Shown: in pieces, positions 2,007 to 49,000 of the stretch
How the letters are laid out: every line of letters begins with the position of its first letter
Position numbering within the stretch: position 1 is the stretch's first letter
NCBI GenBank assembly: GCA_023261645.1
Contig: JAHFOO010000006.1
Coordinates: 1-54,185 of the forward strand
Origin: Candidatus Moraniibacteriota bacterium
Lineage (GTDB): Bacteria; Patescibacteriota; Minisyncoccia; Moranbacterales; UBA1568
Reading direction: 5' to 3'
Length of the DNA: 54,185 nucleotides
Notes under the pieces: model-generated
The model's database searches: none
The model's input: only the letters and a program-made list of their open reading frames with translations
Told to the model about the DNA's origin: nothing
Program-made: the position numbers and the translations under genes

Positions 2007-3635
2007 TCAAGGATTTCTTTTAAGCGTGATTATCGTTACATTGCCGAATGTTTGTGCTTTCTCTGATATGAATCCATCTATGACTTCCGGTATTTTCTTT
2101 TCCGGAGAAATATGCTTCTGTATATAGAAGAACGAATCGTCGGCCGTAATTTTTTCCGGTTTGTATACTTTGCTCACTACTACGCCCTGCTGCTTCGCGA
2201 AATACTCGAGTGGCTTTCCGTACCGGGAGAGATATGCTTTCTTCCCTGCCACATAGATTATTCCGGATCCCTTTGAATTTTCCAAGAAATACTCGCTCAT
2301 CTGCTTCACCTCGCCGAAATAAGCGACATTGTCCGTACTGGCGGTTCCGTTACGAAATGCGACAACAGCATCTCTGATAGTCCATACATTGAAAAAAATG
2401 AGTGTTGCTACGAACAATCCGGCACACAAGATGGAAAACTTATTGTGGATTCTATACAAGAAAAAATGTATCCACAAACCAGCAAGCAGAAACGGTATGA
2501 ACTCGATCGCGATGAAGTATCGTATGGAGAGGGATGAAGAAACAGAGAAAAGAATAAGAAAAATGATGGCGGAGTAGATCGCTACCAGGACAAAAGCACG
2601 TTTTCGTCTCGGATCGACTTCTTTTTTTATAAAGAGCCCAAAAAGTATGAAACCACCCAGAGTGAATATCGTACCGAAAATTGCGATGGCGATTCTCTCG
2701 ATATTGGACCTGATTCCCTTTTTCTCGATCCGGCTCACGAGACCGGTCAGATTGCATTTGTCCCCGCTTCCCAAAGAAGAGACGATGTACGTAGCACCCT
2801 GGATATGGCACAGCACATCATTCGAGAAATCCTCCCCGTAGTTTTTCCCGACACCCTCTGTACTCGATTGTGCGTCCGTAAAGAACGACCGTATATTGGC
2901 ACCATTGTTGTTTATTTCATAGAGAAGTTGTCCTGTGTTTGCAAGGAAAAAGAAGAGGAGTGTCACACAGACACTTTTCCAGATAAAATGCTTCTGTACG
3001 AAAAGATAACCAAGTACCAGGAGCGCGAGCAGTGGCATACTGATGAAAAGTATCGTATGAAGCTGAAAGCCTATTCCCATCGCTACGCCGAGCAACATCG
3101 CCCATCTGAGTTTTTCTTTGGGAGCATTGTCGATGATCGCCAATAAAGCGAAGAAGAATAACAGCGTGAAAAACGGAATGGAGTTCGGATTGAAAGCAAA
3201 CCGTGAATAGGTCACTACGAAAAAAGAGATACTCAAAAGAAATGTCACTGCAAGAGCGATCTTTTCTTCAAAAAACTTCCGGAAGAAAAAATATCCCAGA
3301 ATGATGGTCGCTATGGAAAAAAAGAGGTCAGCATACGCCATTTTTTCCGCAGAGGAACCGAAAATCAATGCAACAGTATATTCAAAATAGTAAAAAATCG
3401 GCCCAAGCTTGAAGAAGGTATTGCCGGCCTGAGGACCCATAAGTGGCCACTGCTTCCCATCGATCATATCTTGTACCAAGAGCGCATCCCGTGCCTGATC
3501 GGGGTTGAAGGTCATCCAATCACGAAATTCGTATGTCCTGAGAAATATACCGACTATCAGAATGGCACCGAAAACCCAGAAGCCAAGTGGCACCTTTTTC
3601 AATCTCTCTCCTATTTTTTTCACTATCGTATTCAT
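2007..3635 (-). CDS. GT39/ArnT-like membrane glycosyltransferase, array paralog 1
   Basis: 542 aa; shared signature GIFLRTYEFRDWMTFNPDQARDALL...LMGPQAGNTFFKLGPIFYYFEY...YSRFAFNPNSIPFF. Confidence 0.65.
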   Translation of the reverse strand: MNTIVKKIGERLKKVPLGFWVFGAILIVGIFLRTYEFRDWMTFNPDQARDALLVQDMIDGKQWPLMGPQAGNTFFKLGPIFYYFEYTVALIFGSSAEKMAYADLFFSIATIILGYFFFRKFFEEKIALAVTFLLSISFFVVTYSRFAFNPNSIPFFTLLFFFALLAIIDNAPKEKLRWAMLLGVAMGIGFQLHTILFISMPLLALLVLGYLFVQKHFIWKSVCVTLLFFFLANTGQLLYEINNNGANIRSFFTDAQSSTEGVGKNYGEDFSNDVLCHIQGATYIVSSLGSGDKCNLTGLVSRIEKKGIRSNIERIAIAIFGTIFTLGGFILFGLFIKKEVDPRRKRAFVLVAIYSAIIFLILFSVSSSLSIRYFIAIEFIPFLLAGLWIHFFLYRIHNKFSILCAGLFVATLIFFNVWTIRDAVVAFRNGTASTDNVAYFGEVKQMSEYFLENSKGSGIIYVAGKKAYLSRYGKPLEYFAKQQGVVVSKVYKPEKITADDSFFYIQKHISPEKKIPEVIDGFISEKAQTFGNVTIITLKRNP

Positions 3636-3645
3636 ACTGTGATGA

Positions 3646-5223
3646 TCAAGGCTTCAAAGAAAATATCGTGAACCTGCCGAATGTGAGATATTCACCCACA
3701 TTCGTCTCTCTGCTCAAAATCTTGTCTCTGCTCTTGCTATTCTCTATAAGGAAGACCGGCACGGACGGATCAGTGTTCTTCTTTTTCTGAACCAGTTTGA
3801 TGCCGGACCTGCTTGTGAAGTATTGCATAGATTTCAAGGCTTTGAAAAGGTATTTGGCATCGCCGTCGACAGCCACTACTTTTGCGTCCGGAGTATGAGT
3901 GATAATAAACGCTGAGGAGAGCTCTACTTCCTTGAGGAGAACGTTGTCCATCCCTGCATCTGAATCCGTGAGATAGGACGCATACGTAGCGAAAGTCTTC
4001 TCGACAGAGAAGATATTCATACCGACAAGAACAATGACGATGCTCCACGCGAGAGCAGATCCGACTCTCGGAAACACCTCTCTTATATACTTCAGCCACA
4101 CACCCAAGAAAACGAACGGGACGAAAAGGGAAACCAGGAAGAATCGCATCGAAATTTCATTCGCCAGAGGAATGAGAAGCAGGAACGTCAGACTCGTAAA
4201 ACAAATAACTATACAGAGGAATGTTTTTTTCGCATACTCCGTTTCCTTCCTATACGAACGAAGTGTCAAGAAAAAACCGCCTACGAACAAAATGAGACCG
4301 GACGCGAAGGCAGGCAGACCATACCCACGTGTGACTGTCTTTGATTCGCAGGTATCGGAGCTATCATAGGAAGACAAGATATACGCACTGCTCTGCGAGA
4401 AACACACGATATTTTTTTCGATATTTTGTATGAGTCCGCTCCCCTTCTTTTCTTTCGTTCCGATACTTTTCAGGAATGCTCCGGAATTTTCTCCGCCTGT
4501 TTTTATTTCACTCACTATCTGAGGAATGTTGAGGAAGATAGCCATACAAAATACGACAACGCCAATTTTCCAGATATTTTTTTTCTGCCTATATAGAAGG
4601 TATCCGAACAGGCATAGTGCCACAGCAGGAAACAAGAGAAACGAGAGTGAATGGAGTTGTATGCCGATCCCGATTGCAACGCCCGGGACCACTGCCCACC
4701 ACTTCCAAGCGTTCTCTTTGGCGATGACAATCTCGTGCAGACTGTACAAAAACAAAAGTGACCAGAACGGGAGTGAATTGGGATTCCAGGCGAAACGCGA
4801 GTACTTTACCACATAAGCAGAAACAGCGAAAATGGCCGTAAGGGAGAGTGCTGTTTTCACGTCGAAATATTTTCGGAGAAAGAAAAAAAGAAGCGGTATG
4901 GAGAGAATGGAAAACAAGAGATCGGGATAGGCCATCTTGTCCGGAGAGTTCCCGAATATCTTCGCAGAGGCGATTTGGAAATAATAAAAGGCAGGACCAA
5001 CCTTGAATTCCGTCCCTCCCGCTTTCGGTCCGAGGAGCGGTATATCCGTCTTCCCATCGATCACATCGCTCGCTATTCCAGCATCTCGCGACTGATCCGC
5101 ATTGAACCGAAGCCAGTCGTGAAAGGTATAAGTGCGGAAAAAAACACCGACACAAAGAAGAACAATAAGCGCCCAGACATGCCAGGAAAATTTTTGACTC
5201 AATACTGAGAAATATTTTTTCAT
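3646..5223 (-). CDS. GT39/ArnT-like membrane glycosyltransferase, array paralog 2
   Basis: 525 aa; GVFFRTYTFHDWLRFNADQSRDAGI...PLLGPKAGGTEFKVGPAFYYFQ...YSRFAWNPNSLPFW. Confidence 0.65.
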   Translation of the reverse strand: MKKYFSVLSQKFSWHVWALIVLLCVGVFFRTYTFHDWLRFNADQSRDAGIASDVIDGKTDIPLLGPKAGGTEFKVGPAFYYFQIASAKIFGNSPDKMAYPDLLFSILSIPLLFFFLRKYFDVKTALSLTAIFAVSAYVVKYSRFAWNPNSLPFWSLLFLYSLHEIVIAKENAWKWWAVVPGVAIGIGIQLHSLSFLLFPAVALCLFGYLLYRQKKNIWKIGVVVFCMAIFLNIPQIVSEIKTGGENSGAFLKSIGTKEKKGSGLIQNIEKNIVCFSQSSAYILSSYDSSDTCESKTVTRGYGLPAFASGLILFVGGFFLTLRSYRKETEYAKKTFLCIVICFTSLTFLLLIPLANEISMRFFLVSLFVPFVFLGVWLKYIREVFPRVGSALAWSIVIVLVGMNIFSVEKTFATYASYLTDSDAGMDNVLLKEVELSSAFIITHTPDAKVVAVDGDAKYLFKALKSMQYFTSRSGIKLVQKKKNTDPSVPVFLIENSKSRDKILSRETNVGEYLTFGRFTIFSLKP

Positions 5224-5229
5224 AACAGA

Positions 5230-6840
5230 TTACTGTTTCTTTAATTGATGTAAACTCATTCTCCCAAAATTCACGCTTTCTATCAACACATAGTGACTGG
5301 TTTCAAATGAATCTCCAGCTTCCAAGGCTTTAGTCATGAAAAAATAATGTCTTTCAGACGTCGGGATGGTTTTTCTCTCGATGTACATTAGTTTGAAATC
5401 CTTTCTTTCTGCCAAATATTTCAACGATTTATAATACGTGGATGCGTACTGAGCTCCACCGAAGAAGATCGCCTCCTTCTCAGGGAAAGATTTCTCAATC
5501 ATATAATCGACTATGCGCTCTGCTTCACCCAAAACGACGAACCCGGAATCCCCCTGTGTACCCGTTGAGAGGTTATGTGCTTGTGCTATGAGCGTGTGAG
5601 CATTCGCCAAAAATAAAAATGCAAACAAGAATATGACAGTAGGAATAAAGAACTTATGTGCAAGCTTTTCTCTCAACCAATCGATCCAGAGTCCGAGGAG
5701 AATAAACGGTATGAATGTCGTATGAATGAAGTATCGCAAAGGAGCATCGCGTGCAACAGAAAAAAGGATACAGAAAGAGAGAAGACTGTAGAAGAGTATC
5801 AACACAAGGAAATACTTACGGCGAAGAATCGTTTCTTTTCGAATACGGACAAGGAGCAATCCATAACCGACAACGGAAAAGAGTATGCTCACGGCAATAC
5901 CGATTACATATACGACATAGAGAAGATGATTTTTTGTCTTTTCCGGATATTTGAGAAGTTTCAAGAAAATGAAGTTTCCCGTATCTCCAAGAGAAGATAG
6001 AATATGAATGTTCGCTTCCGAATGAGAGAGACTGTCCGCCTGCAAATTCTGTATAAATCTATTCACCCCGCTCTGAGACCTATCCGTGGAAGCGACCAAA
6101 AACCGCTGCGCGTTGGCACCGCCCGTTTCCCATTCACTCTTTATCTGTCCGAAGTTGAACGCAAGGGCGACAAAAACTATTATTGCTATTTTCCCGAACA
6201 TTCTCCAGTTCTTCTTCAACAGAAAAAGAAATATCAACGAAGAAAGTACCGGTAGTAAAAGCAGTAAAAGCGTATGAAGCTGTATTCCCACACCGAGAGA
6301 AATTCCCAGAAGGACTATCCACACAGAATGTGTCTTTTCACGATGCTCAAGAAATTTCAACATCGCATACAGATACAACATCACAAAGAAAGGGATGGGA
6401 TTCGGGTTCCAGGCGAAACGCGAGTACTCTATCGTATAGAATGAAATGGCGTAAAGTCCTGTCAAAGCAAGGGATAGATTTTTTTCAAAGTATTTTCTGA
6501 GAAGAAAATAGAAAAGAGGAATTGCCAAAATGGAAAAAAACAAATCGGGGTAAGCAAGAATAGCAACATCACTCCCGAATATCTCTCCCGAAATTATCTG
6601 AAAATAGTAATAGATCGGACCGAGTTTGAAATGCGTATTGCTCGCATCAGCACCCAAGAGCGGCCAAGACGCGGTATTATTCAGAACCTTTTCCACAAGT
6701 ACGGCGTCCCGTGCCTGATCAGATCCGAAATGGAGCCACGTATGAAAATTATAGGTGCGAAGGAAAATCCCTATCGCAACAATCACGAAGATTGTGATCC
6801 ATTCCCACTTCCTTTCTCTAAATTTCTTTCTTATGTTCAT
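5230..6840 (-). CDS. GT39/ArnT-like membrane glycosyltransferase, array paralog 3
   Basis: 536 aa; GIFLRTYNFHTWLHFGSDQARDAVL...PLLGADASNTHFKLGPIYYYFQ...YSRFAWNPNPIPFF. Confidence 0.65.
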   Translation of the reverse strand: MNIRKKFRERKWEWITIFVIVAIGIFLRTYNFHTWLHFGSDQARDAVLVEKVLNNTASWPLLGADASNTHFKLGPIYYYFQIISGEIFGSDVAILAYPDLFFSILAIPLFYFLLRKYFEKNLSLALTGLYAISFYTIEYSRFAWNPNPIPFFVMLYLYAMLKFLEHREKTHSVWIVLLGISLGVGIQLHTLLLLLLPVLSSLIFLFLLKKNWRMFGKIAIIVFVALAFNFGQIKSEWETGGANAQRFLVASTDRSQSGVNRFIQNLQADSLSHSEANIHILSSLGDTGNFIFLKLLKYPEKTKNHLLYVVYVIGIAVSILFSVVGYGLLLVRIRKETILRRKYFLVLILFYSLLSFCILFSVARDAPLRYFIHTTFIPFILLGLWIDWLREKLAHKFFIPTVIFLFAFLFLANAHTLIAQAHNLSTGTQGDSGFVVLGEAERIVDYMIEKSFPEKEAIFFGGAQYASTYYKSLKYLAERKDFKLMYIERKTIPTSERHYFFMTKALEAGDSFETSHYVLIESVNFGRMSLHQLKKQ

Positions 6841-6846
6841 TGCCTC

Positions 6847-8556
6847 TTACTTACGGATCAAATTCCAGACATCTCCCCAATATACCCTGCTGTTTCTTGT
6901 TATTTTCTCGGGCGTAAAAGCTGTCTCTCTGCTATTCTCTTTTACTACGGATGCCTCTGTCATATCCGTAGGATAAAAACGAGTAACCAAAATACCGCCA
7001 GCATCGACAACCGCATCGCGAGTTTCATTCATCATAAATTCCGGTGTAGCTTCATTCGGAAGTGAGATGAAGAAATAACATCCCTTTGGACCGGTCTGGA
7101 AATATTTCTTTTCAGAACCTATGACTGAAAAGAGATTCCTTTGAAGCAATGCGTATTCGATGGAATGATCATATTCCCGGATGCTTTTGGACATAAAGAA
7201 AAAAATAGGGCCTCGTTCTGTGCAAGATGTATTGATTACCTGTGCAACTCTTTCGAAATGTCCCCACGTCAGCCAAAAACTTTTTCCCTTGCTATTCTTT
7301 TCTCCGGTACTCGTCGCTGTTTGCTGTGCATCACTCAATTCAAAAAACCATTTTGTCGTAGCATACGCATTGCTGAACAGAATGATACCGAGACCGAAAA
7401 TCGTCAAGGTCGTAACGAGGCGCGGATAGCATATATTTCTTCGAAGGAATACCAAGATGTATCCGAAATAGAGATATGGCATCATCATAAACGGCAGAGA
7501 GAACCTCGGACGGTCAATTTTAGTTGCCAACGGAATATAGAGCAGAAAATAAACTCCTATCAATATGAGTGTCCACTGCAGAAAATTCCGCTTTGTTCTA
7601 TTTTGTTCGCCACGAAGCAAAAGTATGTTCGCCAGAAACCCAGTTCCGAAGAAAATGCCTGCGAGGAAGATGAGTTTATTTCCTGGATCCACGATACCGA
7701 GCATAATACGTACAGAATATTTCGCAAACATAATCATATCTTGGAAGATGTTTTGGAAAATCCCCTGTGAGGAAGCCTTGCTCGAAATAGCTGAGAAAAA
7801 CAATCGCGTATTCTCTCCGTGTTTGAAATATTCACTGAGGAATACGGGCAGATATACGAGACAGACGCTAGCCAAAAAAATAAGAATGACTTTGTATGAA
7901 AGAACTTTTTTGGCGTCCTTGAGATGAAGCAATACAAAGAGTATCAAAGCGAGAGGAAGACCGAGGAAAGCGCTAAAATGAAGCTGTAAGGCTATGGCAA
8001 GCGATATGCCAGCAACAAAAGCCCACCAGAGTGGTCGTCGTTTTTTGGACTCCATATCCGTATCATAGAGTGCAAGTATCGCATACGAGAAAACGAGCGT
8101 GAAAAAAAGCGTGGAATTGGGATTCCAAGCGAATCTACCGTATTCTATCGCAAGGAAAGAAACGGCGAGCATCCCCGCCATTGCAAGCGACCACAGAGGA
8201 GAGAAATAGCGTCTGGAAAAAAGAAAAAACAATGGAATAGCGAGTATCGAGAAGAAAAGATCCGGATATCCCAACACAGGCGCACTGACACTCTGGAAAA
8301 GGAGCGCTGATATATATTGAAAATCATAAAATATTGGCCCCAGCCGGAGCATCGTCCCTCCGGCCCGCGGACCGAGGAGAGGCAGTGATTCGACCCCTTC
8401 TCTATACACGTTGGAAATCATCGTAGCATCACGGAAAGCATCCCCTTTGAACTGCAGCCATTCATCGAAATGATACACACGAAAAAAAATACCGACCAAA
8501 ATAAGAATAGCCAGAATCCAGATATGTTTCGGAATTGTATTCAAGAAATCCTTCAT
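6847..8556 (-). CDS. GT39/ArnT-like membrane glycosyltransferase, array paralog 4
   Basis: 569 aa; GIFFRVYHFDEWLQFKGDAFRDATM...PLLGPRAGGTMLRLGPIFYDFQY...YGRFAWNPNSTLFF; C-terminus VYWGDVWNLIRK. Confidence 0.62.
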   Translation of the reverse strand: MKDFLNTIPKHIWILAILILVGIFFRVYHFDEWLQFKGDAFRDATMISNVYREGVESLPLLGPRAGGTMLRLGPIFYDFQYISALLFQSVSAPVLGYPDLFFSILAIPLFFLFSRRYFSPLWSLAMAGMLAVSFLAIEYGRFAWNPNSTLFFTLVFSYAILALYDTDMESKKRRPLWWAFVAGISLAIALQLHFSAFLGLPLALILFVLLHLKDAKKVLSYKVILIFLASVCLVYLPVFLSEYFKHGENTRLFFSAISSKASSQGIFQNIFQDMIMFAKYSVRIMLGIVDPGNKLIFLAGIFFGTGFLANILLLRGEQNRTKRNFLQWTLILIGVYFLLYIPLATKIDRPRFSLPFMMMPYLYFGYILVFLRRNICYPRLVTTLTIFGLGIILFSNAYATTKWFFELSDAQQTATSTGEKNSKGKSFWLTWGHFERVAQVINTSCTERGPIFFFMSKSIREYDHSIEYALLQRNLFSVIGSEKKYFQTGPKGCYFFISLPNEATPEFMMNETRDAVVDAGGILVTRFYPTDMTEASVVKENSRETAFTPEKITRNSRVYWGDVWNLIRK

Positions 8557-8604
8557 TATTTGTTGTAAAAAGAGAGAAGCAGGCTATTCTATACAGAAAG
8601 TCTC

Positions 8605-10374
8605 TTACTCTCCCCCATCAATCTGTACCGCATCCCCGCTCTTCGCAATACCGAACACGTCTCCCCAGAAGATTCTATCCGTACTCCCGCCTTTCCGGCT
8701 GAATCGATATTCATCGAATATCTGTCTCTTCGGAAAATTTATTTCGTACACCATCAATTGCCCGAACTGCTTCTGATCCAACACGACGAGATCTTCGCTG
8801 AATTTCTTGGTTACGGGGGCGATGCCATTTTTCGCGGGTGTCACTGCGAAATACTGAGCATTCGGTTCCGCCGTTATCTTCATAGTCATGAAATTGAAAT
8901 CCTTTTCGTGTTTTGAATAGAGCAAGAATTCAATCGGTCTCACATGTTCCGGTTTCACATAATAGAAGAGTGTCGAGCCAGCCTGATGCCGAGCATACAT
9001 CCAGTCAGTCACTCCCTGGAGTTGTCCGAGCGTGACACCGTCTTTGTTTTTCAGAATGAGTGTCCGATCGATTTCAGTAGTTCGCACCTGGGCGCTCGCC
9101 TGTTCCGCGAACCAGAGCGCCGTCCCGCGCATATTGATGGCGAGTACGGCCATCGTGATGAGCGCTGTCGCAACCAGTGCCTTCTTCCCGAATCGCTCTT
9201 CCAAAAACTCATAGAGAAAACCGAGAAGAATGAATGGTACTGCAAAAACGACGATATAGAAACGTGGACGGAGCTGGAAGGCGACGGGAATCGTCAGAAT
9301 AGTGAACACCGTGAACCACAAGAGTATGAGCGCCAGGAAATCTCTGGATTGCTTGTTTTCCATGATCCGGAGCCGATAGAGCACCAAGAGGAGACCGATG
9401 GACATCACGAGTGCCGTCGCTCCGACAGGCAAGACATTCTTTTCCAGATCATTCTTGTAGCAACTCGATGTCGTAAGGAGACAATAATAATTAAGATTCT
9501 CGGTTATATCCTTCTTTATTTTTTCAACCAATGGTCTCTTTTCCCCTTTCGATCCCAAAGCTTCGAAAAAGTTGTGCGTATTTTGACCATTTTTCATCAC
9601 ATCACTGATGATGACTGGGGTATAGAAAACAAGAAATACTCCCAAGGCGATAACAAAGAAGAGAAAAAATTGTTTCAGTGCCGTTTTTTGAAAAAGAGCC
9701 TTCAGACTGTCACGATTCCACACTCGGAGATGGAAGAGAATGAGCAATCCGGAAATACCGAGCAAACTGAAAAATCCGAAGAAATGCAGTTGTGAACCGA
9801 TAGTGATACCCGTGACCCACAAGATCAGCCACCATTTCTTCCACGAAGGACGATCGTCATTCAAAAACCGGAGTAATCCATAGAAACTGAGAATGATGAA
9901 GAACTGCAAGGAATTGGGATTCCAGGCAAAACGAGAATACTGAATAATGAGAAAAGAAAAAGCGTACATCGCCGTGATATACAGAGAATGTCGCCGAGAA
10001 AAATAGAGTCTCAGAAAAAGGAACAGAAGTGGGATGACTGCAATCGAAAAGAACAAATCGGGATACGCGAAGACTGACGGATGAGTGGAGTCGAATATCT
10101 TACCGGAAAGGTATTGGAAATAATAATACACCGGGCCGAGTCGCAACATCCCGTGTTCGAGTTTCACGGCTCCGACCCGCGCACCAAGAAGTGGCAGATA
10201 CTCCGGCCCATTGATGACAGCATTGCTGATAAGAAGAGCATCGCGAGACTGATCCATCTTGAAATACAGCCACTCGTCGAAATGGTAGGCACGTACAAAA
10301 ATGGCTCCCACAATGACGACAAGGAGCGCTATTACCACCCAATGCTTCTTCAAATAATCACCGTATCCGGACAT
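8605..10374 (-). CDS. GT39/ArnT-like membrane glycosyltransferase, array paralog 5
   Basis: 589 aa; AIFVRAYHFDEWLYFKMDQSRDALLI...MLRLGPVYYYFQY...YSRFAWNPNSLQFF; C-terminal IFWGDVFGIAK resembles paralog 4. Confidence 0.65.
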   Translation of the reverse strand: MSGYGDYLKKHWVVIALLVVIVGAIFVRAYHFDEWLYFKMDQSRDALLISNAVINGPEYLPLLGARVGAVKLEHGMLRLGPVYYYFQYLSGKIFDSTHPSVFAYPDLFFSIAVIPLLFLFLRLYFSRRHSLYITAMYAFSFLIIQYSRFAWNPNSLQFFIILSFYGLLRFLNDDRPSWKKWWLILWVTGITIGSQLHFFGFFSLLGISGLLILFHLRVWNRDSLKALFQKTALKQFFLFFVIALGVFLVFYTPVIISDVMKNGQNTHNFFEALGSKGEKRPLVEKIKKDITENLNYYCLLTTSSCYKNDLEKNVLPVGATALVMSIGLLLVLYRLRIMENKQSRDFLALILLWFTVFTILTIPVAFQLRPRFYIVVFAVPFILLGFLYEFLEERFGKKALVATALITMAVLAINMRGTALWFAEQASAQVRTTEIDRTLILKNKDGVTLGQLQGVTDWMYARHQAGSTLFYYVKPEHVRPIEFLLYSKHEKDFNFMTMKITAEPNAQYFAVTPAKNGIAPVTKKFSEDLVVLDQKQFGQLMVYEINFPKRQIFDEYRFSRKGGSTDRIFWGDVFGIAKSGDAVQIDGGE

Positions 10375-20058: not shown

Positions 20059-20430
20059 TTATTTTTTTGAACTATCTTCGGCTATTCGTTCTTTTACCTT
20101 CTGAATTCTTTTCCATAACATAGCTCCTATCTCGTCTGTTAACAACATGAGTATTTCATAATCTTTTTTTGATATATATCTTTCACGAGTACAGAAGAAC
20201 AATATATATTTTGTTTCTTTCAGAGAACCGTAGGAAATTTGTAAAAAATTCTTCAGTTCTTTATTTCCTGTTCGTGCGAAACCTTCGATATAATTCAGAA
20301 CAACAGACAATGAGGCTCTTCTAATTTGTGAAGTGAGTCCGTATATTTCATCTTTAGGAAAAGTTTTTGTTACAGAATACACACCCTGCGCGAGTTTATC
20401 CATTTTTTCCTTCAAAATATCCTTCTCCAT
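20059..20430 (-). CDS. Four-helix bundle protein (23S rRNA intervening-sequence/S23 family)
   Basis: MEKDILKEKMDKLAQGVYSVTKTFPKDEIYGLTSQIRRASLSVVLNYIEGFAR. Start trimmed from 20484 to the ATG at 20430 because the upstream part is repeat sequence. Confidence 0.85.
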   Translation of the reverse strand: MEKDILKEKMDKLAQGVYSVTKTFPKDEIYGLTSQIRRASLSVVLNYIEGFARTGNKELKNFLQISYGSLKETKYILFFCTRERYISKKDYEILMLLTDEIGAMLWKRIQKVKERIAEDSSKK

Positions 20431-20434
20431 GTTT

Positions 20435-20464
20435 GTATTCCGTTGACTGTTATTTGTTGTCTGT
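20435..20464. repeat. 30-bp direct repeat, copy 1 (contains TTGACTG TTATTTG TTGTCTG heptads)
   Basis: gtattccgttgactgttatttgttgtctgt, identical to 20512-20541. Confidence 0.85.
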
Positions 20465-20511
20465 CTTTGCCTTCTCTTCTTCATTAACTGTTATCTGCTT
20501 TGTTGTTCTTC

Positions 20512-20541
20512 GTATTCCGTTGACTGTTATTTGTTGTCTGT
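20512..20541. repeat. 30-bp direct repeat, copy 2; overlaps the 3' end of the GT2 gene
   Basis: Identical to 20435-20464; the heptads continue with TTATCTG to 20547. Confidence 0.85.
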
Positions 20542-21471
20542 TATCTGTCGTATGGTGTAGTTCATCCTACTGCGGCCCTGATAGTAGCTTCGCACCACCA
20601 TATCAGCGAGCAAACCGGAAATGAAGAGTTGTACGCCGATGAGCAGGAAGAAGATACCGACGAGTGGCCAGATACGCTGTGCCAATGCTTCGTGAAAAAC
20701 GATTTTTTCTATGAGCATCCAAATGAGGATGGCAGTACCGGTCGAGAACAGAAGTACGCCACCACCGCCGAACAGATGAAGCGGACGATACGAATACTTC
20801 CGCCAAAACCAGATAGACATCATATCGACGAGTCCTTTCATACCACGCTTCCAGTTGTATTTGGTCACACCGTGAAGACGAGGATGATGGGAGACTTTTA
20901 CCTCTGCCACACGGAAGCCATCCATTTCAAGAATAGCCGGGATGAAACGATGCATTTCTCCGAAGAGGTCCACGCCATCGAAACATTCACGACGATAGGC
21001 CTTCAGACTGCATCCCGAATCGTGTATCGTGTCTCGGATGAGAATCTTGCGGAGGAAATTGGCGATACGGGAAGGGATTTTCTTGCTCCACGGATCCTGA
21101 CGATTGAAACGCCATCCGGATACCACGTCATAGCCCTCGTCTATTTTTTCCAGAAGCAAAGGAATATCAGCCGGGTCATTCTGCAGGTCACCATCGAGCG
21201 TGATGATGATTTCTCCTACGGCGGATTTGAATCCGGCATCAAATGCAGCCGTCTGACCGAAGTTCTTGCGGAACACGATGAGTTTCAGTGGCGAAAGTGT
21301 TCGGGCGATTTCTACCGTCTTGTCCTTGGAACCATCATCGATGAAAATGATTTCAAATGATTTCCCGATCTTGCTCACTGCTTCGAATATCTTCTGATGT
21401 AGTTCTGCGACATTCCCCTCTTCGTTATAGAGTGGGACAACAACCGATAAATACACTTGATTTTCTTGCAT
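20527..21471 (-). CDS. GT2 family glycosyltransferase (GtrB/ArnC/DPM-like) with C-terminal TM helices
   Basis: 314 aa; LSVVVPLYNEEGNVAELHQ; IIFIDDGSKDKTVEI; ITLDGDLQNDPADIP; RDTIHDSGCSLKAYRRE. Confidence 0.92.
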   Translation of the reverse strand: MQENQVYLSVVVPLYNEEGNVAELHQKIFEAVSKIGKSFEIIFIDDGSKDKTVEIARTLSPLKLIVFRKNFGQTAAFDAGFKSAVGEIIITLDGDLQNDPADIPLLLEKIDEGYDVVSGWRFNRQDPWSKKIPSRIANFLRKILIRDTIHDSGCSLKAYRRECFDGVDLFGEMHRFIPAILEMDGFRVAEVKVSHHPRLHGVTKYNWKRGMKGLVDMMSIWFWRKYSYRPLHLFGGGGVLLFSTGTAILIWMLIEKIVFHEALAQRIWPLVGIFFLLIGVQLFISGLLADMVVRSYYQGRSRMNYTIRQITDNK

Positions 21472-21473
21472 AC

Positions 21474-21749
21474 TTGATAAGTAAAGCAGTTACATACTAC
21501 CCCTCAATAATAGCGAAGAAACCGAGTTTAGGCAATAAACCACTTCAAATTGACACTAGAAAAACAAAGCAGTATAATCCACCTATAAAGATTACTCACT
21601 GCGATATCTGCAAAAAGACAATAAAAAAAGATTCAAAAAGCATACATATAGGTGTAGGCGGTATTTTTTCTAATTCGGTAGAAATCTGCTCTGATTGTGG
21701 TAAACCTGTCTTAAAATTATTAAAGACTAAAAAACTACTAAAAGATTAA
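21474..21749 (+). CDS. Small CxxC...CxxC (zinc-ribbon-like) protein; start uncertain (TTG)
   Basis: ITHCDICKKTIKKDSKSIHIGVGGIFSNSVEICSDCGKPV; no ATG start outside the overlapping GT2 gene. Confidence 0.45.
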   Translation: MISKAVTYYPSIIAKKPSLGNKPLQIDTRKTKQYNPPIKITHCDICKKTIKKDSKSIHIGVGGIFSNSVEICSDCGKPVLKLLKTKKLLKD

Positions 21750-22100: not shown

Positions 22101-22850
22101 ATGAAACACTCGGTTCTTATCATCCAGTTCCGCACCGATGCTTCGGCGGTTCACGAACAGACCTGCCTTCCGGACAAATTCATCAGATCGAATTCGGACG
22201 ATATCACATTTCATTTTCTCAATGCATTCGATGCATCTTCAAGTTGGAACAAAGATCCGCAACATCTCCTCGATGGATACGACAGTGTCATTCTCGGAGG
22301 ATCATCGGAATTCTATTTCGGTGGCAATGTCGATAGGAAACGAGAGACGATTCACCAGGCGATGATCGATCGGATCCGTCCACTCATCACCTATATCATC
22401 GACAATGATTTTCCGACGCTTGGTATCTGTTTCGGACATCAGATGCTCGGATATTTCCTCGGTGCACGAGTACTCGACGACCCTGAGCAGGCTGAGTTTG
22501 GCTCGTTCCCAGTCAATCTGTCCGAGGATGGCAGACGAGACCCCCTCTTTCACGATATTCCTGACAGCTTCGTCTCATTTCTTATGCATCGAGACAGTGT
22601 GGCATCACTCCCCGAAAAATGTGTTCTCTTGGCACACAGCTTGAAATGCGGAATCGGATCGTTCCGTCACAAGAACAATATCTACGGCGTACAGTTCCAC
22701 CCCGAACTGGAGAAAGACGAAGTATGTTTCCGTGCCACCCTCCACCCCGAATACGCGGGCGGATCTCTCGAAACATTTCTGGAAACGCTCCAACCCTCCG
22801 ATCACGCACCGAAAATACTCGCCAATTTCCTCAGAAAAAGTATGTGTTGA
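22101..22850 (+). CDS. Class-I glutamine amidotransferase (GMP synthase glutaminase-like)
   Basis: LGICFGHQMLGYFLGA and YGVQFHPELEKDEV (Cys/His/Glu triad). Start trimmed to the ATG at 22101. Confidence 0.88.
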   Translation: MKHSVLIIQFRTDASAVHEQTCLPDKFIRSNSDDITFHFLNAFDASSSWNKDPQHLLDGYDSVILGGSSEFYFGGNVDRKRETIHQAMIDRIRPLITYIIDNDFPTLGICFGHQMLGYFLGARVLDDPEQAEFGSFPVNLSEDGRRDPLFHDIPDSFVSFLMHRDSVASLPEKCVLLAHSLKCGIGSFRHKNNIYGVQFHPELEKDEVCFRATLHPEYAGGSLETFLETLQPSDHAPKILANFLRKSMC

Positions 22851-22857
22851 TGAACGC
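22780..22857. repeat. Gene-3'-end direct repeat, copy 1 (in situ end of the amidotransferase gene)
   Basis: tggaaacgctccaaccctccgatcacgcaccgaaaatactcgccaatttcctcagaaAaagtAtgtgttgatgaaCGc; 4 differences from copies 2 and 3. Confidence 0.95.
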
Positions 22858-22897
22858 TTTTTTTAATTTCCCTATTTGAATGAGGAGGTCTGTCTAT

Positions 22898-23695
22898 TTA
22901 TCTTTCAAAACTCTTCAAATATTCAGGAAGCTTCAAAATCCATTTCGCTTGTTCCGGGTAGAACAAGAATCTTTCGACATCTTTCACTGCTTGTGCCAGA
23001 TCGCTCTTCTCTGCCTGATTCTTCAAAAATTCAATCAACTCCTGACGATTACCGATCTCCAATTTCTTTTCTTTGAAAATTTCATAATTCGGCTCCAGAT
23101 CCCTCTGACTCAAAAACCACACAAGATCATAGAAATCACGCCCCTTCTGATAAGGACGGAAAATAATAGCCACTACTTTCTGAGCGAACAGCGTATCGAG
23201 AGAATTGACCACCATCGGAAAGCGTTCATTGAAACTATCAGAAAACCTCGTCTCCGTATGAATGTTTTTATAGGGATTGAAATCGATTTCAAATTTGATC
23301 AGAATCTTTTCATTCCCCTGAACGTTCAGACCGAACTCCTGCAAAACATTCTTAAATCGAAAGAAAATAATATGGATATTTTCGGTTGTTTTCGTCCGCG
23401 CGTCAACTTGAAATCCCTGTAATTCGAGTTGATTCTTGACAGTAGTCATCAAGTCTTCGATATTGAACCCTTCTTTCTTTATCAGATCAAAATCCAAATC
23501 TTCAGAGAAACGATTGATCCCGTATGCGAAACGGAGGCAGGTGCCACCGAGGAATGAGAGACTGTCATTGAACGAGCTGAGAGAGAGTGCCTTGAGAATC
23601 TGGGTTTGCAAATACTCCAACAAGATATTCCGATCTTGCCATGGGATATTTCTCTCCTCTGCATATTTCTTGAAAAAATCTTTATTTGGCAACAT
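22898..23695 (-). CDS. AbiEii/AbiGii-type nucleotidyltransferase toxin
   Basis: 265 aa; LSFLGGTCLRFAYGINRFSEDLDFDLI, characteristic GGT...RFSEDLDF motif. Confidence 0.88.
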   Translation of the reverse strand: MLPNKDFFKKYAEERNIPWQDRNILLEYLQTQILKALSLSSFNDSLSFLGGTCLRFAYGINRFSEDLDFDLIKKEGFNIEDLMTTVKNQLELQGFQVDARTKTTENIHIIFFRFKNVLQEFGLNVQGNEKILIKFEIDFNPYKNIHTETRFSDSFNERFPMVVNSLDTLFAQKVVAIIFRPYQKGRDFYDLVWFLSQRDLEPNYEIFKEKKLEIGNRQELIEFLKNQAEKSDLAQAVKDVERFLFYPEQAKWILKLPEYLKSFER

Positions 23696-24305
23696 AGTAC
23701 TTGATGAAATTTTGAGTTAAGAATAACACTTTCTTATTCTGGAAAGCTTGAGCGAACAGAGACAACTTTTTTGCATCGAACTTGAATTCTTCATTGAAAC
23801 GATACCCTCGGAATTGCTCCAATTCTCCATTCAAAATATTCCGTTTCAAATAGAAAAAATCTACCATCGCTTTCTCCGGCACAGCCACATTGAAAGAAAT
23901 CTTGCCATTTCTCTTTGTTTCATACCCGCCAAAGGCCTCTTTCTTGATTTTCTGATAACTGAAATTTCCCCGTTTCGTATTGAATTCTTTTGTTTTTCTC
24001 GTTGTTACAGAAGTCACAGTAAATACGGCTTCGGGGATAATTCCATAAAAATTGAGCGCTTTTTCCATACTCACGTATGAGGGATGATACAGTTTGGTCG
24101 CCAAACTCATCGAATCCACTTTCTCCACTTCATCGGCGATAGCATACAGTCCCCTTCGGAGCATAATGAGATGACCCTTATTTACCCAGTTTTTCAGATT
24201 GATAAGCATACTGCTGGTAAATTCATCACCCAGAACAAGCCGTAATTCTTTGGTTTCAAAAAATGGTAATTCTTCAATTTTCTTCTTAAATTCAAAGTAA
24301 TTCAT
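23682..24305 (-). CDS. AbiEi-like antitoxin / transcriptional regulator
   Basis: 207 aa; LINLKNWVNKGHLIMLRRGLYAI; 14-bp overlap with the downstream toxin gene. Confidence 0.8.
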   Translation of the reverse strand: MNYFEFKKKIEELPFFETKELRLVLGDEFTSSMLINLKNWVNKGHLIMLRRGLYAIADEVEKVDSMSLATKLYHPSYVSMEKALNFYGIIPEAVFTVTSVTTRKTKEFNTKRGNFSYQKIKKEAFGGYETKRNGKISFNVAVPEKAMVDFFYLKRNILNGELEQFRGYRFNEEFKFDAKKLSLFAQAFQNKKVLFLTQNFIKYYVAK

Positions 24306-24338
24306 TTCTTTTATTCATATTATTATATCAATAAAAGA

Positions 24339-24367
24339 ATCATACTACAATAATACGGTATTGTCAA
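24339..24367 (-). promoter_or_regulatory. Promoter of the AbiE-like operon
   Basis: Minus strand TTGACA - 17 nt - TATGAT; ACAATA/TATTGT inverted repeat lies in the spacer. Confidence 0.75.
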
Positions 24368-24432
24368 TACACTCATTTTATGGCTTAATATAGACTGATT
24401 ATGGTGTCTCTAATGCAGAATCATTTCTTTTC

Positions 24433-24510
24433 TGGAAACGCTCCAACCCTCCGATCACGCACCGAAAATACTCGCCAATTTCCTCAGAAGAAGTCTGTGT
24501 TGATGAAGAC
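24433..24510. repeat. Gene-3'-end direct repeat, copy 2
   Basis: 78 bp identical to copy 3; followed by seven T, so AAGTCT...AGACTT plus T-run forms a terminator-like hairpin. Confidence 0.95.
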
Positions 24511-24514
24511 TTTT

Positions 24515-24537
24515 TTTGGAAGCCGAGATTCCAAATG
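24515..24537. repeat. 23-bp palindromic end repeat, left copy
   Basis: TTTGGAAGCCGAGATTCCAAATG; matches the right copy except for 4 bases in the centre. Confidence 0.8.
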
Positions 24538-24614
24538 TTAGGTGAGATTTATGGATATGGGCGATATAGAATGATTCCAGTTCCATTCTTTCACAGTTTT
24601 TGAGCCGTTTGCAA

Positions 24615-25742
24615 TCAACCTACAACAAAATCACGATAATTTTCTTTATTGACAAGCTCTACACTACTCTCTGGATATCCAACAGAAAATTCCTTTGGAA
24701 TAGAAAATTTTTCTTTCTTCCATTTAAATTCGAATCCGGAGATAAGACCATTCGCATCTTCGATATAATCAATTTCTTTTCCATTCGTCGTTCTCCAAAA
24801 GTAAGTATTGGCGAAAATACCCTTGTTTGAATTCCTCTTGAGGCGCTCAACAACGAGAAAATTTTCCCACAGTGCTCCTATATCGTTTCGCAATGAAATC
24901 GGGTTAAGATTGTTAATCAAAGCATTGCGCATACCGAGATCGTAGAAGTAAACTTTTCGCTTCTTCTTGAGTTCATTTCTCACATTACGTGAAAACGGTC
25001 CAACACGAAAAACGATGTATGCCTGTTCCAAAATTCGAACATAATTCTCAATTGTCACTTTGTTTACCCCCATCATCTGTGCCAATTCCGTATATGAAAC
25101 TTCACTTCCGATTTGTAAGGCGAGTGCCCGAAGCAACTTCTCAAGAAGTTCTGGATTGCGAATATCTTGATACATCAATACATCTTTGTAAGAATAACTC
25201 GTGGCAAGTTCTCGCACTCGTGTTTCACGATCATTATCGAATATAATCCCTGGATACATGCCATATACCATCCACTGCTCAAGCAATCGATCTATTTCAA
25301 GAGAAGAATATACAGAAAGCATTTCTTCAATAGAAAATGGGTATAAATAAAACTCATTCTTTCTTCCGGTAAGTGGTTCGGATATTTTCCCAGATAGTTC
25401 AAAGGAAGACGATCCCGTAGCAATAATTTGCATTTCCGGAAAGTTATCCACAAAAAGTTTCAATGTCAACCCTATATTCTCTACTCTTTGAGCTTCATCT
25501 ATGACGATAAGTTTTCGAGAACCGATAAACGCTTTCAATTCGGTTGATGTCTTATTTGTCAAAGCCTCCCTTACATCAGATTCATCACAATTTAGATATA
25601 TCGAATCACTTTCGAATTTTTGAAGAATCTCTTTTACAAGAGTAGTTTTCCCTACCTGCCGAGCACCGTAAATAACTACTATTTTCCCCTTAAAAAGGGA
25701 CGCTAAAACAGTATCATAAATAGCTCTTTTCACTAGGTTCAT
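24615..25742 (-). CDS. AAA_14/DUF4143 ATPase
   Basis: 375 aa; Walker A IYGARQVGKTTLVKEI, Walker B KLIVIDEAQRVENIG; C-terminal FLVVERLKR...TYFWRTTNGKEIDYIE. Confidence 0.9.
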   Translation of the reverse strand: MNLVKRAIYDTVLASLFKGKIVVIYGARQVGKTTLVKEILQKFESDSIYLNCDESDVREALTNKTSTELKAFIGSRKLIVIDEAQRVENIGLTLKLFVDNFPEMQIIATGSSSFELSGKISEPLTGRKNEFYLYPFSIEEMLSVYSSLEIDRLLEQWMVYGMYPGIIFDNDRETRVRELATSYSYKDVLMYQDIRNPELLEKLLRALALQIGSEVSYTELAQMMGVNKVTIENYVRILEQAYIVFRVGPFSRNVRNELKKKRKVYFYDLGMRNALINNLNPISLRNDIGALWENFLVVERLKRNSNKGIFANTYFWRTTNGKEIDYIEDANGLISGFEFKWKKEKFSIPKEFSVGYPESSVELVNKENYRDFVVG

Positions 25743-25769
25743 AATAATTTACGTTAATATAGTGACTCA

Positions 25770-25798
25770 AATATATACTATTCAGGCTATTATGTCAA
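25770..25798 (-). promoter_or_regulatory. Promoter of the AAA_14 ATPase gene
   Basis: Minus strand TTGACA - 17 nt - TATATT. Confidence 0.7.
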
Positions 25799-25857
25799 TA
25801 AATACTGGCACAGAAGTGTGAACTTTACTACTTATAAGCCATTTCTTATAACTTCGA

Positions 25858-25880
25858 TTTGGAAGCCTTGCTTCCAAATG
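25858..25880. repeat. 23-bp palindromic end repeat, right copy
   Basis: TTTGGAAGCCTTGCTTCCAAATG; perfect 9-bp stem TTTGGAAGC/GCTTCCAAA. Confidence 0.8.
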
Positions 25881-25881
25881 A

Positions 25882-25959
25882 TGGAAACGCTCCAACCCTC
25901 CGATCACGCACCGAAAATACTCGCCAATTTCCTCAGAAGAAGTCTGTGTTGATGAAGAC
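25882..25959. repeat. Gene-3'-end direct repeat, copy 3
   Basis: 78 bp identical to copy 2. Confidence 0.95.
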
Positions 25960-26009: not shown

Positions 26010-26693
26010 ATGCCTCAAACAACCTGGATAGTCATCCCCGCCTACAATGAAGGTACCATCATACAGAGTGTGATTGCCGAAATTCGTAGTGCCGGTTATG
26101 AAAATATCATTATTGTCGATGATGGCAGTACCGATGATACCTATGAGAAAGCCAAAGAAATTCCTGGGATAGTCGTACTCAAACATCTCATCAATCGTGG
26201 CAAAGGCGCTGCAACAAAAACAGGCATCGAGGCAGCAAAACTCTTCGATGCTCATATCATTGTCACTCTCGACGGTGACGGCCAACATAGTCCAAGCGAT
26301 ATCGCTCGACTGATAGAACCTATACAGCAGAATCACTGCGACGTCGTTTTGGGCACCCGTCTCAAAAACCCCATTGGAATGCCCTGGTACAAAATACTCG
26401 CCAATCATATCGGAAACGCCATCACCTGGTACTTCTACGGTCTCTGGGTTTCGGATAGTCAATCAGGATTTCGAGCCTATTCTCGCCACGCTTCCGAACT
26501 TATTAATACAAGAACCGATCGTTATGAGTACGACAGCGAAGTCATTCGTGAAATTTACGTTTATAAGCTAAAATATAGAGAGGTTCCTATAGAAGTACGC
26601 TATACTGAATACTCGATGGGAAAAGTCCAGAAACAGGGTTTTATAAATGGCCTGAAGACATTCTACAAAATCATTTGGAATCTCCTCTCATAA
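26010..26693 (+). CDS. GT2 family glycosyltransferase (DPM1-like)
   Basis: 227 aa; TTWIVIPAYNEGTIIQSVI; IIIVDDGSTDDTYEKA; VTLDGDGQHSPSDI; DSQSGFRAYSR. Confidence 0.92.
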   Translation: MPQTTWIVIPAYNEGTIIQSVIAEIRSAGYENIIIVDDGSTDDTYEKAKEIPGIVVLKHLINRGKGAATKTGIEAAKLFDAHIIVTLDGDGQHSPSDIARLIEPIQQNHCDVVLGTRLKNPIGMPWYKILANHIGNAITWYFYGLWVSDSQSGFRAYSRHASELINTRTDRYEYDSEVIREIYVYKLKYREVPIEVRYTEYSMGKVQKQGFINGLKTFYKIIWNLLS

Positions 26694-46056: not shown

Positions 46057-49000
46057 TCAATAATTAATTTTCATACTCCCTCTCTCTGTCATTATACTCG
46101 GAATTATCATTCCTGATAGCTTCACCCGGGTGGAGCGATGCCTAATATCATCATTCTCATCGGAAATGAGTTCTCTCGGTTTCTCTGTTATCCACGTCTC
46201 GTTTTTCTTGAAAAAATACTCTGATTCAAGATTCATTGTCGGTATTCTCAACTGAGCATCGAGCTTTGCATATTTTCCACGCCAATCTTTCTGCCATTCA
46301 TACTGCATACTCGCATCTTTCGCCTCTACACTGATGCCATCATACGAAAGAGATTGGAGAATATACTTGAGATGATTTTTCTCATTTTCTTTTTCTTCAA
46401 AGACTATGACCGTCGTATGTCCTGCAAGATCGGTGAGAGTCGTGGTAAGAAGAGTCCTCTTCTCTCTGCCATTCTTCTCTCGCTTGTCATCGCGATTGAA
46501 CTGAGAAAAGAATGAATACCAATGTTTCTCCTCCGACACAGATTCAGTGTCTTGTATTATAGATTCCACGCTTACTACTGAAACAGATTGTCCGAGATTG
46601 TCAACGCCGGTGATTTCAAGTTTCTGTATTGTCGAATTGAAAACAATTTTTGCTTCTGGTGCTGTCTTATCTATCTTGATCGTTTCTGTTTTTACTTCTT
46701 CCTTATTCCCCTGTTTATCAGTAGAAAAATATTGAACAGTTGTTGTGCCTTCATTTGAGAGAACGAGAGGATCGATATAAGTATTCCAACTCGTGCCATC
46801 ATCAAAAGAATATTCTGTCTTCTCGATACCGCTCCCATTTGTTTCGTCTTGTGCAGTCAGTGTTACCGTCACATCGCTCGTATGCCAGTCATTGGTTCCC
46901 TGCGTACCTGAAGGAGCAATAGTGGTCACAGGAGGCGTGATATCGAACACTACTCGTTCACCAGGTTTGGGCTCGAGAGAGAAATCAGTCGCACCGTCAC
47001 CATCATAATCCACCACAAGCGGTGAAGCGCCAGCTATGGTACCGTCGGCAAATGTCATCGTTACCGTGGTATCAGGAGAAGTCGGGATAGCGGAGAAGGT
47101 TGTTGTTTCGGTAATATCATCACCTGTCACTTCTTGTACTTCAAGTGTAAACGAGCCTACAGATTGTCCATCCAGCACTATTGTTGGATCACTCCCTGCG
47201 GGGACAGAAATATATTGCACTTCGCCGAAACGACGATACTCCGCATCTGGATAAGCATCATCCTCTGCGCTGATAATATTGCCCTGACTATCGTGAGCAG
47301 AGAGAGCAAGAGGTGAGTGGAGATAATAGCGGAGACGTTTTTCTGAAGATGCCGGAGGCTCAGAATCTGAAACAAAATCTGGCAACGCTGTCGATATTCC
47401 TATGAGAATACTATTTTTAATGAAACTACGTAGCTCGGAAACTTCGAGGATATCTGCATGTTTCCTTTCTAGTGTTGAAGGCGTGTCATAACTCGCTAAA
47501 TCCACCCAATATCGTTTCGCATTCACCACACTCGTACTTATTGCCAAAGCACTCGGAGCGACGACTGTGCCATCACCATCAACGACAAGCTCTGGAGTAT
47601 ATTCGAGTTTCGGTACGCGCGAGGAGCAGATCTTTCCTGCTTCGTGGAGACATTCTTCCCCTGTCCAATACTTGATCGTTCCGAGAGTATCCTCTCCGAA
47701 ACCGGCTATCTGATATACGGCAATCGATGATGGGATAACCGAATCATCCAGCGTTTGATGTACATTATCGCTACTCGACAATAATCCAGAATTCACCATA
47801 CTTGGACTGACGATATCAGAAGAATCAGCTGTAACCTTTCCTGTATTATCCAAAAGAAAACTCTTGAGTTCAGTTGACGTATCGACTTTGTTCCCATAAT
47901 TATCAATAAACGGCTGAGTGAGGGTTCCATCTTCAAAAGTAATGACCGGCGTATCGACACCGCTTCCTTCGCCTGAAAAATATGAATCTGATGGTAAAAG
48001 ATTGTATGCACTCGGCATATTCTGTGCCAGTGCACGTGCTGTCCTCGGAGCAAGTGCGAAAGGCAACCAATTCACAGGAAGTCCCTGGTCATAACCATGG
48101 AGTATGGCACCGATAGCTTGCGGTGTTCCTGATTGTGGCACTGCTACGAAAACAATTTTATCGATAAGCTGTTCTGCTTCCGCACCCAGCTTGTTCACCA
48201 GTGCTTTGGCCACCAATCCACCATTGGAATGCGCAATAAGTGTGACCTTGCCAGATTTCGATGAACTCGCGAGACGACGCAACTCCTCTATGATATATGG
48301 TGTATCTGTAGAATGAGTATAAGAAACATTGTCTCCAGTTTTTGTGCCACTATTCAATGTGTCATCCAAAGAAAGGCGCCAATCATACGGCATAGCGACA
48401 TAATCTGCTATGAGGCCATCAACATTCTTCCATTTATCCAGATCTGCAAGAAACGATTTGTAGATATTCCCTTTAATTGGAATATAGGCGTTATCAAGCA
48501 CATCTTTTGTATAAATATCGTCTCGGATACTCTTCCCATTTTCATCGAGATACAGTTTCTCGGCGTCTGCATCGCTACTCGGTTCCCAAACTTTTTTATC
48601 AGCGGTATAGAGTCGGCTCGATTCGATTCCTGGTAAAAACAAAACGTTCGAATAGCAATTCTCGGTACAAGAAACATCGTCAAAATTCGGTTCAGTTTCA
48701 AGCCATGGTCGGAAGATAACCCCATCTCCCATAACACTATTCCCCTGTCCCTGTAAATTTGCCTTCTGTGGATCAGAATGGTAAAAATAAGGACCTGTTA
48801 CATCACCCCACCAATTATTTGATGCATCAACTGACATACTGCCTCGTATTCCTGATAAGAAAGCCTGTATTCCTCTTCCATTATTTATTATTGAGCTGTT
48901 GCTTATTTTCGGTATACGACTTGATATCGAAGTTGCAACTTCTAAACCAATGTTATTATCAGATAAAACAAGCGATCTCAGAAGTGGGATCGTATCTCTG

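Follow-up and report, generated by a model that had tools for sequence, protein, structure and literature searches.

Probable recombinase-independent gene capture by insertion-duplication at gene ends in Candidatus Moraniibacteriota

Introduction

In Escherichia coli, DNA with one homologous end was circularised and integrated by a RecA-dependent single crossover, leaving target-end duplications of 109-950 bp (PMC3240628), and homology-facilitated illegitimate recombination (HFIR) in Acinetobacter, S. pneumoniae and P. stutzeri is cited in the same paper. An HFIR-like process was proposed by Kirchberger (2017) for sequential displacement in the type VI secretion system (T6SS) arrays of Vibrio (PMC5361080). 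In the mitochondria of Allomyces and Glomus, a foreign in-frame C-terminus and a mobile open reading frame (ORF) have been inserted together, displacing the native C-terminus (PMC3630166). Here we compare with these systems a locus on contig JAHFOO010000006.1 of a Candidatus Moraniibacteriota bacterium (GCA_023261645.1), where the 3' end of a class I glutamine amidotransferase (GATase) gene is present three times, with AbiE-type and AAA_14/DUF4143 ATPase genes between the copies. The whole stretch analysed, 54,185 nucleotides long, is called the window.

The locus resembles one-arm integration and HFIR (PMC3240628) in combining a homologous arm with foreign DNA and in the partial duplication of the target end around the insert. 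Those systems, however, are laboratory transformation or conjugation, whereas a recurrent natural process would be needed here, and the present repeats are shorter (33-143 bp). With T6SS effector/immunity arrays (PMC5361080) and orphan Rhs ends it shares serial 3'-side insertion that shifts older 3' ends downstream; in those arrays the gene end is the variable toxin, while at the present locus a conserved end is accompanied by unrelated passengers of toxin-antitoxin or defence-like type. C-terminal duplication at several unrelated genes is also a trait of the mitochondrial mobile ORFs (PMC3630166), but these are driven by homing endonucleases in organelles, and no common endonuclease is found here. 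Islands and integrative elements inserted at the 3' end of a gene or tRNA likewise re-create the gene end and are flanked by direct repeats, but they have an integrase of their own and a single specific site, neither of which applies here. Integron gene cassettes form similar arrays of cargo separated by similar repeats; the repeats here are instead host gene ends, without attC-like folding. The kind of process is already known; its natural, recurrent occurrence at housekeeping gene ends with defence-like passengers would be new.

Results

Three copies of the GATase end

The first-pass annotation of the window had reported three 78-bp copies of the GATase end with reversed cargo genes between them. 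Re-measurement and Pfam and PADLOC matches gave the same picture, with these features (asterisks are stops):

22101..22850, + strand, GATase class I, 249 aa, the host gene (PF00117, 3.7e-20)
22780..22857, + strand, R1, in-situ GATase end, tail FLRKSMC*
22898..23695, - strand, AbiEii toxin-type nucleotidyltransferase, cargo 1 (PF08843, 1.8e-28; PADLOC AbiEii, 5.2e-53)
23682..24305, - strand, AbiEi antitoxin-type regulator, cargo 1 (PADLOC AbiEi, 7.2e-52)
24433..24510, + strand, R2, displaced GATase end, tail FLRRSLC*
24615..25742, - strand, AAA_14 + DUF4143 ATPase, cargo 2 (AAA_14, 2.7e-33; DUF4143, 1.2e-42)
25882..25959, + strand, R3, distal GATase end, same sequence as R2

The repeat unit comprises the 3'-terminal 71 bp of the GATase gene, whose stop codon lies at 22848-22850, and 7 bp beyond. 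The spacing is 1653 bp from R1 to R2 and 1449 bp from R2 to R3. R2 and R3 are identical across all 78 bp, while R1 deviates at four positions, each inside the final 21 bp; two codons differ, both non-synonymously. A chance origin of the repeats is excluded because the self-BLAST E-values are ~1e-28 to 1e-33. The repeat search that the annotation had proposed returned three copies in the 840-kb genome, all at the GATase locus, and none in the 27 other family genomes searched. Tandem duplication of the whole gene followed by decay, which the annotation had itself named as the competing account, is rejected, since the copies break off abruptly and their left flanks are unrelated.

The AbiEi and AbiEii genes overlap by 14 bp and are predicted to form one operon, as in AbiE toxin-antitoxin systems; the Pfam AbiEi_4 match of AbiEi (3.8e-4) is under the cut-off. 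The ATPase matches the PADLOC candidate PDC-S01 at 2.5e-153, a candidate status that falls short of proving defence, and its type is present in 49/387 genomes of the class. Cargo 2 is bordered by two short hairpins, neither with an assigned strand:

24515..24537, hairpin TTTGGAAGCCGAGATTCCAAATG, left edge of cargo 2
25858..25880, hairpin TTTGGAAGCCTTGCTTCCAAATG, right edge of cargo 2

Elsewhere in the window (3151-9968), an 88-nt motif occurs five times at intervals of ~1.6-1.8 kb; its copies are 60-70% alike and are probably tandem paralogous genes.

Recurrence at other gene ends

We scanned for near direct repeats at gene ends in the whole genome that carries the window, in 0.87 Mb of the congener G010 and in 0.42 Mb of G024 (another genus). 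In the window's own genome, the 3' end of a histidine kinase (HK) gene (C5:22502-24241) is present in three copies. The two other copies, at about C5:19769-19911 and C5:18640-18733, and the in-situ end surround a radical-SAM/peptidase-like cargo and a Bro-N cargo. In G010, an unrelated cargo of 5.5 kb lies between duplicates of the orthologous HK end (129 bp, 93%), and in G008 this end is duplicated twice (105 bp, 83%; 108 bp, 81%) around a peptidase-like gene and a HepT-type gene. A second kinase stands behind HK in G007, and 13 family genomes have an empty site, the response regulator directly following HK. In different genomes, one orthologous gene end is thus either empty or occupied by alternative cargoes.

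Further hosts were found in G010: an hss-like gene (51 bp, copies identical), rnhB (57 bp) and an amidase, whose end occurs four times, with Fic-type and other genes in between. Duplication in G010 extends to the terminators that follow glgC and the rRNA operon, the latter site having an empty counterpart in the window's own genome. The two genomes together gave small counts, six coding hosts and three terminator cases. No clear case was found in the 0.42 Mb of G024, and none was confirmed in 79 control loci (0.99 Mb), mainly of unrelated bacteria and archaea, where the sole 3'-end match turned out to be a palindromic intergenic repeat. Of the 5'-end duplications in the window's own genome and in G010, most turned out to be paralogues, tandem repeats or dispersed repeats.

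A mirrored case exists in G023. Its homologue of the AAA_14 protein (77% identical) is encoded at a different locus, and 85 bp of another repeat flank it. This repeat is the 5' end of pilD, and an intact pilD follows downstream. Hence 3' and 5' ends are both usable, provided that one intact gene remains. The DNA similarity between the two AAA_14 inserts ends at the gene and its promoter, so that the conserved element ends of a DDE/insertion sequence-type transposon are absent. Since the AAA_14 homologues are flanked by different repeats, the repeat is a property of the site, and the cargo has no conserved ends.

The cargoes overall include AbiE, AAA_14/DUF4143 (PDC-S01), Bro-N (PDC-S13), Fic (PDC-S04), HepT, NUDIX, radical SAM and peptidases (M16 included), and an enrichment in toxin-antitoxin or defence-like genes is visible by eye. 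These cargoes bear on a homing-type origin, in which a cargo nuclease would cut the gene end and the element would bring a replacement end, as in fungal mitochondrial mobile ORFs. DUF4143, which we take to belong to the PD-(D/E)XK nuclease clan, would suit such an origin. So would the closest published anatomy, in which several genes have their C-terminus repeated downstream of a mobile ORF (PMC3630166). Most cargoes, however, are non-nuclease (Fic, Bro-N, M16 peptidase, radical SAM, NUDIX, AbiE), and one AAA_14 family occupies two unrelated sites, so that we regard homing as improbable.

Some other repeats came to light. At L265 (G328, C36), two genes with similar C-terminal swivelling-type ends stand on either side of an AAA_14 homologue, and upstream there is a third, orphan end; this is possibly a related array, an ambiguous case left out of the counts. 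The window's own genome has a 174-bp sequence, 97% alike, ahead of both nusG and rplK (C8:47044-47217 and 47762-47935), which G010 lacks at both genes. It also has several dispersed repeat families of 150-220 bp (for example, C3:25954, C4:65701, C4:112874 and C10:33428, with further dispersed repeats at C1:9573, C3:54500, C2:12684 and C4:75007), possibly miniature inverted-repeat transposable element-like sequences or non-coding RNA.

Recombinases and attachment sites

Neither insert of the window has a Phage_integrase or Resolvase match, and no recombinase gene was recognised in them, in agreement with the first-pass annotation. The search for a trans-acting recombinase that it had recommended returned a single Xer-type tyrosine recombinase (C4:89565) and one serine recombinase of 547 aa (C10:53204), both on contigs other than that of the window. 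The latter gene (C10:53204-53653, L222) adjoins a RepA-like ATPase gene ~2.4 kb from the contig end, and its region is possibly a separate integrated element.

The annotation had taken the gene 3' end for the attachment site of a recombinase. Accordingly framed, the inserts would be small integrative elements moved in trans by a site-specific recombinase (Xer, the large serine recombinase or another), the gene end being the att site. Both recombinase types are encoded in the genome, integrative elements typically re-create gene ends, and R2 and R3 are identical with a common left edge. Beyond the GATase locus, the site itself fails to stay constant. The repeats at the nine host ends are unrelated, having only chance-level words of 7-12 bp in common, and range from 33 to 143 bp in length. 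The HK joints are scattered across about 56 bp from event to event, and joints vary at the amidase too. With such variation in sequence, length and joint from one site to the next, the data fit no single recombinase site. Nor does R contain a Xer-like or recombinase-type inverted repeat above chance level (65% of shuffles were as good), and the 5'-end case in G023 and the unconserved cargo ends also speak against an attachment site. We therefore consider a trans-acting recombinase unlikely, though it keeps weight because it too would explain why R2 and R3 start at the same base.

Two more specific element types were rejected. In an integron cassette array, attC-like folding would be expected, and the DNA fold of R is not better than that of shuffles (z = -0.54); there is no IntI-type integrase nearby, the single Xer-type match being on another contig. 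For an integrase-bearing element (integrative and conjugative, integrative and mobilizable, or phage-inducible chromosomal island-like), the direct repeats from gene-end re-creation are present, but the inserts lack an integrase, the matches of the genome being on C4 and C10. A constant att site is likewise missing across the nine host ends; at GATase alone both joints coincide.

The copies as alleles

Most copies remain in frame up to a stop of their own, and the tails often differ. Between the rnhB copies, 8/8 differences are synonymous (neutral simulation, P = 5e-5). Third codon positions account for 20/25 differences in the three G010 hosts pooled (p = 2e-6) and for 60/105 in all pairs (p = 5e-7), the HK pairs being partly non-independent. 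We read the copies as alleles because these differences are coding-constrained, which is hard to obtain through duplication and neutral decay. Judged by their coding sequence, the proximal and displaced ends look like different functional alleles, hardly like decayed duplicates.

The same data bear on an in-situ duplication of the target during insertion, through a very long and variable target-site duplication or slippage, with the copies diverging later. Repeats tied to the site rather than to the cargo would agree with this, and the identity of R2 with R3 and of the two hss copies is as expected shortly after duplication. On the other hand, the displaced copies diverge under coding constraint, most clearly in rnhB, the intact but differing tails with stops (HK, epimerase, amidase) suit imported alleles, and there was no sign of a transposase that makes duplications this long. 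An in-situ duplication is thus quite unlikely in our view, more so than a recombinase acting in trans.

The same interval in relatives

The GATase locus lies between two divergently transcribed glycosyltransferase genes that are kept as syntenic markers in relatives:

20527..21471, - strand, GT2a glycosyltransferase, left flank
26010..26693, + strand, GT2b glycosyltransferase, right flank (PF00535)

The content between them varies among relatives, in line with the claims of insertion at a gene end, each event leaving an extra end copy, and of a hot-spot for defence, the cargo being of toxin-antitoxin or defence-like type. The interval holds a sugar epimerase gene in G010 and G007, an epimerase and a Bro-N gene in G003, and only ~250 bp in G023. 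In G003, the Bro-N gene is enclosed by two copies of the epimerase end, which are both in frame with stops but have different tails (ISEHDKK* and IQKK*). Therefore, the same type of event occurred twice in the GT2a-GT2b interval, with different host genes. The GATase gene is missing from this locus in congeners, with only weak matches elsewhere in the genus, which makes GATase itself an accessory gene. Its nearest full-length relative is from Candidatus Azambacteria, which together with the small genome and the presence of ComEC points to Patescibacteria; genome_contigs yields distant relatives only, and IMG/VR none. Of the locus comparison suggested by the annotation, alternative contents were thus recovered, but not an empty GATase site.

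An 86-bp stretch beside GT2a (21547-21631) has its counterpart beside GT2b in G003 (L171:5802-5887, 88%) and marks separate insertion points within one interval. A gene for a 23S rRNA-intervening-sequence/bAvd-like protein (20059-20484) also lies beside GT2a, with a similar gene near GT2a in G023. In G005 (L178, C6), GT2a neighbours a 120-bp repeat pair (1654-1773 and 2131-2250) and a reverse transcriptase gene (2588-3655), likely a diversity-generating retroelement.

This repeat pair, at a neighbouring locus of a relative, is comparable to the template and variable repeats that a retroelement could have left at gene 3' ends. The differences between the R copies, however, are not adenine-directed and are mostly synonymous, and the window has no reverse transcriptase near R. 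Assembly artefacts might be suspected as well, the genomes compared being probably all metagenome-assembled, but the pattern is present in independent assemblies, and flanks and sequence variants are particular to each copy. Retroelement or artefact, this origin is scarcely credible.

Discussion

One-end host homology, partial duplication of the end and an intact host gene, which characterise insertion-duplication and HFIR, were all found. The locus is probably the result of gene capture by insertion-duplication at a gene end, independent of a recombinase, and the recurrence at unrelated genes in related species suggests capture by partial-homology recombination with no dedicated mobile element. 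The incoming DNA would come from a relative and carry an allele of the host gene's end adjoining a foreign cargo gene. This short shared stretch would be its point of entry, either by one RecA-type crossover after circularisation or by HFIR. The host gene would remain intact, its end being the resident one or a hybrid, and the cargo would follow. A second copy of the gene end, beginning at the end-joining point, would remain further downstream as the old end is displaced, and repeated rounds would yield the array R1-cargo-R2-cargo-R3. That all four differences of R1 fall in its last 21 bp would be compatible with crossing-over within the repeat, but four is a small number. DNA uptake may occur by competence: ComEC is encoded in the genome, and natural competence has been shown in Saccharibacteria (PMC10633639). 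Selection may act on the cargo.

Several observations weigh against this explanation. R2 and R3 begin at exactly the same base despite their different cargoes, which should be rare under random end-joining; re-integration of a circle of R and cargo excised from a sibling would yield such a common edge. Neither a donor genome nor an empty GATase site was found, the latter in relatives of the genus, genome_contigs and IMG/VR. In G011, G001, G009 and G003, other genes stand behind HK without a detectable repeat. R1 and R3 of the HK gene in the window's own genome show no excess of third-position differences, and with non-synonymous differences in the window, the allele argument depends on other loci.

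A bolder and doubtful extension is that these lineages possess a dedicated capture route that needs no recombinase, with any gene end as a docking point, and that defence or toxin genes spread from strain to strain by carrying a working end of their neighbour. If so, an insertion would never cost the host a gene, and each array would be a dated stack of past insertions. Gene capture by insertion-duplication would link laboratory HFIR and single-crossover integration to natural gene arrays, with displaced ends recording the order of events, and duplicated gene ends in frame would be a simple signature for spotting such insertions elsewhere. It may allow very small genomes to acquire defence and toxin-antitoxin genes in the absence of integrases and transposases.

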